NCBI RefSeq assembly: GCF_011089895.1
Contig: NZ_JAANAT010000001.1
Location: forward strand, 744,001 to 808,000
From: Mucilaginibacter inviolabilis
GTDB taxonomy: Bacteria > Bacteroidota > Bacteroidia > Sphingobacteriales > Sphingobacteriaceae
DNA length: 64,000 bases
Direction: 5' to 3'
Shown here: piece after piece, positions 7,991 to 48,324 of the stretch
How the letters are laid out: each line of letters starts with the position of its first letter
Numbering within the stretch: the first letter of the stretch is position 1
Notes under the pieces: generated by a model
Database searches by the model: none
Seen by the model: the letters and a program-made list of their open reading frames with translations, nothing else
Told to the model about the DNA's origin: nothing
Program-made: the position numbers and the translations under genes

Positions 7991-8285
7991 GTTTTATATG
8001 GCTATTTATTTTAGTATATTTGTGAGTACAACGGCCTTGTTTTCTTTTACCAGAAAGCAAGGCCGTTTTGTTAAGAGATAAAACGGTACAAAAATAGATT
8101 GTTTGGTTTGTAATTATTTTATTTTCAAATGTTTAATACTTTTTAAACTTTTCAAAACACATCAAAACCGTGCTGGAATTTGTTAAAAAGTGTTAAAATG
8201 AAGGTTTTTCGAACGATTTTCAGCAGTTTTTTCCTCGTTTTCGGATCGAAAAATGTTAAAATTTAAGGTTTAAAAAGTTTTCAAA
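7991..8285 (+). ncRNA. candidate structured intergenic RNA / repeat element, copy A
   Basis: A TATATTTG -7 box at 8015-8022, preceded by TTTT at 7992-7995, directs transcription rightwards. A long hairpin begins at the expected transcript start: 8030-8044 pairs with 8053-8067, with outer AACGGCCTTG/CAAGGCCGTT. A block at about 8131-8285 is nearly identical to 48061-48215 and includes the direct repeats TGTTAAAAAG, TGTTAAAATG and TGTTAAAATT. Its ends carry complementary ACTTTTTAAAC and GTTTAAAAAGT, which could close a long-range stem; inside, TTTTTCGA pairs with TCGAAAAA. There is no sustained reading frame. It lies about 100 bases before the HD/PycTM gene in the same orientation. It could be a small RNA, a leader element or a non-autonomous mobile repeat. 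Confidence 0.55.
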
Positions 8286-8381
8286 CCGGTACATCAAATA
8301 ATATCTGAGGAACATTTAATAGCCTGCCGGAAATATTAAATTTTAAAATAAATTTGATTACTTTAACCATAAAAAGCTATC

Positions 8382-45287: not shown

Positions 45288-45362
45288 TGTCATGCTGAGC
45301 GCCGTCGAAGCATGGTGGGTAGCCTCTGCGCTCTACCCTTCGACGGCGCTCAGGGTGACAGT
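45288..45362. repeat. CTGAGCGCCGTCGAAG extragenic inverted repeat
   Basis: CTGAGCGCCGTCGAAG (from 45295) reappears inverted as CTTCGACGGCGCTCAG (about 45338-45353), with TGTCA/TGACA at the outer ends. The high GC content is unlike the surrounding DNA. Similar TGTCATGCTGAGC words are common extragenic repeats in Bacteroidota genomes, which suggests a REP-like family. Confidence 0.65.
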
Positions 45363-47929: not shown

Positions 47930-48225
47930 TTGCTCACATATATTTAGTATATTTGTAGGTAACGGCCCGCTTGTATGATAAAAATACAAGCGGGCCGTTC
48001 TGGTTAAGTCCAAAAGAGAACAAAAATAGCCTGTTTTTGAGTTAGTTATTTGATAGTCAATTGTTTAATACTTTTTAAAGTTTTAAAAACTCATCAAAAC
48101 CGCGCTGTAATTTGTTAAAAAGTGTTAAAATGATGTTTTTTCGATCAATTTTAGGCCCTTTTTGCCCCGTTTTTGACCGGAAATTTGTTAAAATTTAAGG
48201 TTTAAAAAGTTTTTTGCATCATGAT
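47930..48225 (+). ncRNA. candidate structured intergenic RNA / repeat element, copy B
   Basis: TATATTTG at 47948-47955 is followed at 5 bases by a perfect 16-base hairpin (47961-47976 with 47984-47999, loop GATAAAA). It shares the outer AACGGCC/GGCCGTT pairs with copy A while the inner pairs differ but remain complementary. The block 48061-48215 matches 8131-8285 nearly base for base, including TGTTAAAAAG, TGTTAAAATG, TGTTAAAATT and the closing pair ACTTTTTAAA/GTTTAAAAAGT. The GH127 gene reads away to the left, and the deaminase gene has its own promoter downstream, so the element appears to be an independent transcript or repeat. Confidence 0.55.
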
Positions 48226-48316: not shown

Positions 48317-48324
48317 TAATTTTG
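48317..48324 (+). promoter_or_regulatory. -7 box (TAATTTTG) of the hydroxyproline-type gene cluster
   Basis: TAATTTTG fits TAnnTTTG and ends 16 bases before the deaminase start codon, giving a short leader. It is downstream of the copy B element and separate from it. Confidence 0.5.

Follow-up and report, generated by a model that had tools for sequence, protein, structure and literature searches.

The BIMEs of Escherichia coli are among the closest described systems to the element presented here; BIME-2 elements are gyrase sites, and BIME-1 elements carry IHF sites. The motif of E. coli gyrase is symmetrical and spans 130 bp: cleavage takes place in a 36-bp centre that lacks periodicity, and the 47-bp arms show a period of 10.75 bp (PMC6379681). 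Curvature over about 75 bp suffices to pin plectonemes in vitro (PMC6301789), and what A/T runs phased with the helix do in bacterial chromosomes has been described as unclear (PMC3940949, PMC3431218). We present here, from computation, a dispersed family of about 105 elements of about 280 bases each in the 7.15-Mb genome of the soil bacterium Mucilaginibacter inviolabilis. A search of the open-access literature found no description of this family.

Like BIME/REP sequences, the element has about 100 or more intergenic copies, a palindromic part, and a proposed role in supercoiling or nucleoid organisation; unlike them, it has no alternating REP array but a single covarying hairpin, a 139-bp body of phased runs, and a promoter, and it shows no correlation with Y1 (RAYT-type) transposases. 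With bacterial clusters of phased A-tracts and with curved promoters (Tolstorukov 2005, cited in PMC9825172; PMC3940949; PMC4132750), it shares phasing at the helical repeat, predicted curvature, and a suggested role in packaging or supercoiling. Those signals are statistical and genome-wide or belong to single promoters, whereas the element is a homologous, dispersed family of fixed length, with its curvature downstream of the promoter. Like the element by prediction, plectoneme-pinning DNA is strongly curved over more than 75 bp, a curvature that was shown to pin supercoils in vitro; the natural pinning sites described lie upstream of promoters and form no homologous repeat family (PMC6301789). 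The best reading of the element is as a DNA-architectural one that would function in the manner of BIMEs, of plectoneme-pinning curved DNA, or of strong gyrase sites. It was not filed as a gyrase site, BIME, RNA family, or transposable element, because a defining feature of each was either missing or only partly present.

The window is the whole stretch of DNA that was analysed, 64,000 nucleotides of contig NZ_JAANAT010000001.1 (positions 744,001 to 808,000). It contains two copies, A and B, both on the + strand and both where the sequence-only reading had placed them, each with TATATTTG, a hairpin, and a conserved block of TGTTAAAA repeats. The order of parts is a −7 box, a hairpin, a spacer about 70 nt long, a body running from CTTTTTAAA to TTTAAAAAG, and a T-run, right after which conservation ends (in copy A, immediately 3′ of TTTAAAAAGTTTT). 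The family alignment and boundary profile place copy A as a whole, from the promoter region to the terminal T-run, at 7991 to 8281. Its −7 box TATATTTG, assigned to a Bacteroidota-type promoter from the sequence, its near invariance in the family, and the enrichment of TTG 23 nt upstream, lies at 8015 to 8022. The 5′ hairpin at 8030 to 8067 (arms 8030 to 8045 and 8052 to 8067) is supported by covariation across copies and a preference for G·U over A·C, and the spacer at 8068 to 8138, which includes partly phased A/T runs, by the tract occupancy profile. The curved body, 139 bp with A/T runs phased at 10.75 bp, occupies 8139 to 8277. By the sequence and family profile, the −7 box TATATTTG of copy B lies at 47948 to 47955. 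It is followed by a hairpin at 47961 to 47999, supported by covariation, whose 16-bp arms (47961 to 47976 and 47984 to 47999) have zero mismatches and are thus 100% complementary, a spacer at 48000 to 48070 (tract occupancy profile), and a 139-bp curved body at 48071 to 48209, recognized by its phasing, length, predicted curvature, and inverted-repeat (IR) pattern.

The sequence-only reading called the element two-copy, which stands for the window, where the IR-bounded body pattern occurs exactly twice (0 in 100 shuffles), and fails for the genome. There, counts that depend on motif searches, with each genome readable in part, give about 96 exact occurrences of the 20-nt core TTTGTTAAAAAGTGTTAAAA, 103 to 107 at no more than one or two mismatches, and 101 of the IR-bounded body pattern; the reversed control of the core had 0 matches in the same genome. 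BLAST with copy B alone as the query returned 40 scored matches at E ≤ 1e−41. For the family analysis, 1.94 Mb of sequence around copies was read, from which 99 copies above 80 bits were recovered, nearly all full-length and intergenic wherever inspected.

Distribution was searched in 150 Mucilaginibacter genomes using BLAST and the pattern CTTTTTAAA-N118..124-TTTAAAAAG. Eight genomes carry the family, and the carriers include Mucilaginibacter sp. OK268, M. lappiensis ATCC BAA-1855, sp. SG564, M. aquaedulcis CECT 8102, and sp. SP1R1. Four close species contain 101, 111, 99, and 89 copies, and four distant species have 15, 3, 3, and 2 pattern matches (one of those with 3 has a fourth that looks coding); because the pattern is strict, true counts in the distant species are probably higher. 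The remaining genomes of the genus have 0 to 2 pattern matches each, coding- or chance-like, and the family was absent from the rest of the Sphingobacteriaceae sample, which yielded single chance matches only. With so few carriers among the 150 genomes, the element is dispensable within the genus.

The body is constrained to 139 bp and a 10.75-bp phase, which is a signature of DNA shape. Its A/T runs occupy fixed slots about 10.7 bp apart in the tract occupancy profile, and across 89 copies their spectral power at 10.75 bp is 28.1, versus 2.5 ± 0.2 in run-preserving shuffles. Body length is 138 to 140 bp in 187 of 195 bodies. Two body subtypes differ at alignment columns 181 to 190 and 214 to 239, with a CGCGTTGAA stretch in one and extra GTTAAAA repeats 10 to 11 bp apart in the other; a loss of about 10 nt is offset by a gain of about 11 nt, which is one helical turn, and the total lengths are equal within about 1 bp. 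Curvature predictions from an approximate wedge model gave an end-to-contour ratio of 0.55 for the body versus 0.87 for dinucleotide shuffles; the phasing is independent of any model. A sliding scan of the 1.94 Mb with the same approximation gave a median ratio of 0.47 for copies versus 0.93 for background, with predicted ratios below 0.55 in 90% of copies versus 7e−5 of background windows, so that the bodies are predicted to rank among the most bent DNA read. Seventy viral segments with the same inverted 9-mers had a median phasing power of 3.4, versus 29.7 for the family (minimum, 13.7). The viral matches to the core 20-mer and the IR pattern were rejected as chance, with neither a profile match nor phasing, and scanning viral contigs with a neighbouring protein turned up no match.

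Phase is also kept in the 21 divergent bodies recovered as pattern matches from the four distant species (z = 24.6, 17.8, 16.5, and 8.9). Occupancy of the run slots there is 0.81, versus 0.15 half a turn away, and A has been exchanged for T or T for A in 53 of 198 occupied slots of divergent copies. That phase and length are kept while the sequence and the strand of the runs drift is, in our view, the strongest evidence that what is conserved is shape and neither sequence nor RNA. Sequence conservation goes beyond the A/T runs at some body positions (TTTGTTAAAAAGTGTTAAAA), which calls for a protein or another explanation. On these results, we consider it somewhat probable that the element is a DNA-architectural one, its body working as DNA shape, and that it serves as a supercoil- or nucleoid-organising site.

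Several curved sequences were met beside the family. L188:1435 and L151:8145 are strongly curved by prediction, apparently noncoding, and outside the family by profile; the latter has A/T runs of its own plus a hairpin. At L251:4042-4778 in M. lappiensis, a curved element is split by about 450 bp of other repeats, with both halves recognisable.

The body could instead be a full-length gyrase wrap beside a promoter, making the copies strong DNA-gyrase sites repeated round the chromosome, like the phage Mu SGS or BIME-2. Its 139-bp length and 10.75-bp spectral peak resemble the 130-bp, 10.75-bp E. coli motif (PMC6379681), both falling at about 130 to 140 bp. Its layout is also roughly symmetrical, with A-runs mostly on the left, T-runs on the right, and inverted repeats at the ends. 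We nevertheless judge this reading unlikely. Unlike the strong gyrase sites, the body has no nonperiodic 36-bp core, its centre being as periodic as its arms (amplitude 0.31 versus 0.25 and 0.32) and almost in phase with them, and it recurs as about 100 homologous copies; gyrase, moreover, is universal, yet the element occurs in 8 of 150 genomes.

Upstream of the body, the element has its own promoter and hairpin. The −33/−7 arrangement is the promoter type of Bacteroidota. In the family, the −7 box (TATATTTG/TATHTTTA) is nearly invariant at its place, and TTG is found at exactly −23 from it in 21 of 87 copies, versus 1 to 4 at most other positions. The −33 box is imperfect in the window, where copy A has TTT at 7992 to 7994 and copy B has no TTG at the exact offset, so the promoter claim rests on the family profile. 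Apart from the TTG there is little conservation upstream of the −7 box, and the promoter thus seems to be retained for its function and not copied along as a block.

There is one hairpin per copy, at a constant end and in a constant orientation, and its commonest arms across the family are AACAGCCCGG...CCGGGCTGTT. Twelve predicted pairs show double compensatory changes in the copy alignment, every one of them in the hairpin, and permuting alignment columns among copies costs the hairpin 6 to 9 kcal/mol (z, −15 to −20). On the + strand, stem mismatches are G·U in 51 cases versus A·C in 18 (P = 9e−5), or 46 versus 18 in distinct contexts (P = 6e−4), related copies not being fully independent in these counts. 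A DNA cruciform has no strand preference for G·U over A·C. This preference therefore indicates that selection has favoured the hairpin as a transcript made in the direction of the promoter, and we infer that it acts as RNA, read on the promoter strand.

Promoter and hairpin are kept and the curved body is lost at L272:4921-5061 in SG564 and L288:1903-2048 in OK268, which have similar flanks, and likewise at L265:5438-5547 in M. lappiensis. Such copies are natural test cases for what the head of the element does alone.

If the product were a short hairpin RNA of about 45 to 50 nt, made by the promoter and a self-terminating hairpin, the curved DNA would only tune that transcription. The hairpin does start at about the expected start site, TTTnGTT follows the stem, and at the site shared by SG564 and OK268 the promoter and hairpin persist in the absence of a body. 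The T-run is weak, though, a terminator scan calls no terminator there in copy A, and the tight body length is not obviously needed for tuning, so that we regard this explanation as quite unlikely.

The sequence-only reading had suggested a transcribed RNA family, to be supported by many promoter-linked copies with covarying stems, and had noted that the ends of the conserved block can pair. Many promoter-linked copies and a covarying stem were indeed found, the stem being the 5′ hairpin, and ACTTTTTAAA and TTTAAAAAGT are complementary in sequence. This complementarity is that of a DNA inverted repeat, lacking the covariation of an RNA helix, and the spacer and body (about 210 nt) show no covariation beyond column composition (column permutation, z between −1.6 and +1.3). 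The RNA-family reading thus holds only for the hairpin head, and it is very unlikely that a whole transcript of about 250 nt is the functional product of a multicopy small-RNA family. Beyond the promoter signature and the covarying stem with its G·U preference, such a family would account for the sharp 3′ end with its T-run and for a consensus folding energy of −71.8 in the 99-copy alignment, versus −11.6 ± 3.5 with shuffled columns. Despite that energy, the column-permutation test led us to reject a full-length RNA family: column composition alone explains the pairing in the body, where phased A- and T-runs pair trivially. The helix 134-147:184-197 has no double changes and is not kept in sp. 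SP1R1, and A and T are exchanged inside the body. Rfam gave no match at the gathering score in the window, and 15 copies searched at E ≤ 3 gave chance-level hits only. As a caution for similar cases, a low folding energy together with repeated blocks that pair can pass for an RNA family where the real constraint is DNA phase.

Neighbouring genes, called as longest open frames, tend to be co-oriented with the element (>E> 43, <E> 23, >E< 20, and <E< 13). About 10 bp separate the end of the element from the stop codon of a convergent neighbour, and about 110 bp are left before a neighbour's start codon, room for that neighbour's own promoter. Shared regulation of the two gene clusters next to copies A and B, as proposed from the sequence, was not borne out: a survey of the neighbours of copies found them diverse, with no family enriched, and the downstream genes in the window have −7-like boxes of their own between the element and the start codon (TAAATTTG near 8350 and TAATTTTG near 48317). 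In 67 of 99 copies, the strand of the element matches the local GC skew.

Copies avoid near neighbours on the chromosome. Relative to uniform placement, intervals below 20 kb number 8 versus 24.6 ± 3.7 expected (0 of 5,000 simulations were as low), and those below 5 kb number 0 versus 6.8 expected. Regular spacing was considered and rejected (interval coefficient of variation [CV] 0.89, P = 0.12; gaps up to 383 kb), only short distances being avoided. Three copy-free stretches of 286 to 383 kb (G000 contig C1, 406 to 722 kb and 1384 to 1767 kb, and C2, 125 to 411 kb) may represent acquired islands or a special region of the chromosome.

Two other repeats were noted in passing. An unrelated dispersed repeat of about 310 to 340 bp that contains CTTGGCCGCGGGAGGGCC (L125:16289-16602 and L146:9479-9820, also L155, L215, and L227) was met in the alignment of SG564 with the window's genome and is at times near the curved element. 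The GTCATGCTGAG/CTCAGGATGAC inverted-repeat motif, at 45289 in the window, is also dispersed, with 49 motif matches in the 1.94 Mb, and a similar repeat lies inside the insert that splits the L251 curved element of M. lappiensis.

The family is vertically inherited. All 35 SG564 copies with a comparable orthologous region are at the same site and in the same orientation, with flanks near 85% identity, and both readable copies of SP1R1 are orthologous to copies in the window's genome. Mean identity is 67.5% among copies within the window's genome and 79.2% for the SG564 orthologs. Copy L271 of SP1R1 shares only 58% identity with its ortholog, versus a mean of 58.8% with other copies. On these two loci, it seems that the copies were homogenised within each lineage once the lineages had diverged, or that a single trans-acting factor made them change in parallel.

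A nonautonomous mobile element (MITE- or REP-like), amplified in the clade ancestor and now fixed, with body and hairpin as transposase recognition sites, would fit the high, dispersed, and clade-restricted copy number, the inverted repeats at the body ends, and the Y1 transposases present in the genome, and target immunity of a transposon could explain the near-neighbour avoidance equally well, but we consider it highly improbable: a scan of 4- to 9-mers at all offsets found no target-site duplication, the 4- and 5-mers that it returned all deriving from the motif; in the readable parts of the genomes, alignable flanks never enclosed a clean empty site, and absences coincided with rearranged intergenic DNA; and searches of plasmids, phages, and viral contigs gave no relatives, while Y1 transposases, the only class compared, are equally frequent in carriers and noncarriers, orthologous sites stay occupied, and almost all copies are full-length. 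Nor is recent mobility supported for the nonautonomous repeat that the sequence-only reading had offered as an alternative, given the same absences and the stability of orthologous positions.

In the DNA-architectural reading that we prefer, the element is a composite intergenic device, in which a promoter would drive an RNA that starts with a GC-rich hairpin, and some 210 bp of DNA come next. Of these, the final 139 bp, equal to 13 helical turns of about 10.7 bp each, would be strongly bent by the phased A/T runs, with CTTTTTAAA and TTTAAAAAG inverted at the edges. It is this composite makeup that the computations support, and the functions proposed for it are inferred. The body would then form a large part of a superhelical turn, drawing the two inverted sites nearer, and may fix the tip of a supercoil, have a protein that bends or wraps DNA (gyrase or a nucleoid protein) wound with it, or both. 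Local transcription from the built-in promoter would supply or sense supercoiling, and the conserved GTTAAAA direct repeats in the body would be the points at which a specific protein makes contact, its preference having shifted from species to species.

With about 100 sites, typically tens of kilobases apart, the copies would be organisers of supercoil domains or the nucleoid, a Bacteroidota counterpart of the E. coli BIMEs. Put as a whole, and only tentatively, some 100 dispersed, vertically inherited stations, each a self-transcribed hairpin with a 13-turn curved coil, concerted within species and conserved in shape and not in sequence, may partition the chromosome into supercoil domains. 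The sites are known to the base, noncarrier congeners can serve as controls, and the predictions for half-turn versus full-turn changes are clear. As a discrete multicopy family of fixed length, whose sequence drifts as its phase and length persist, the element makes selection on DNA shape directly testable.
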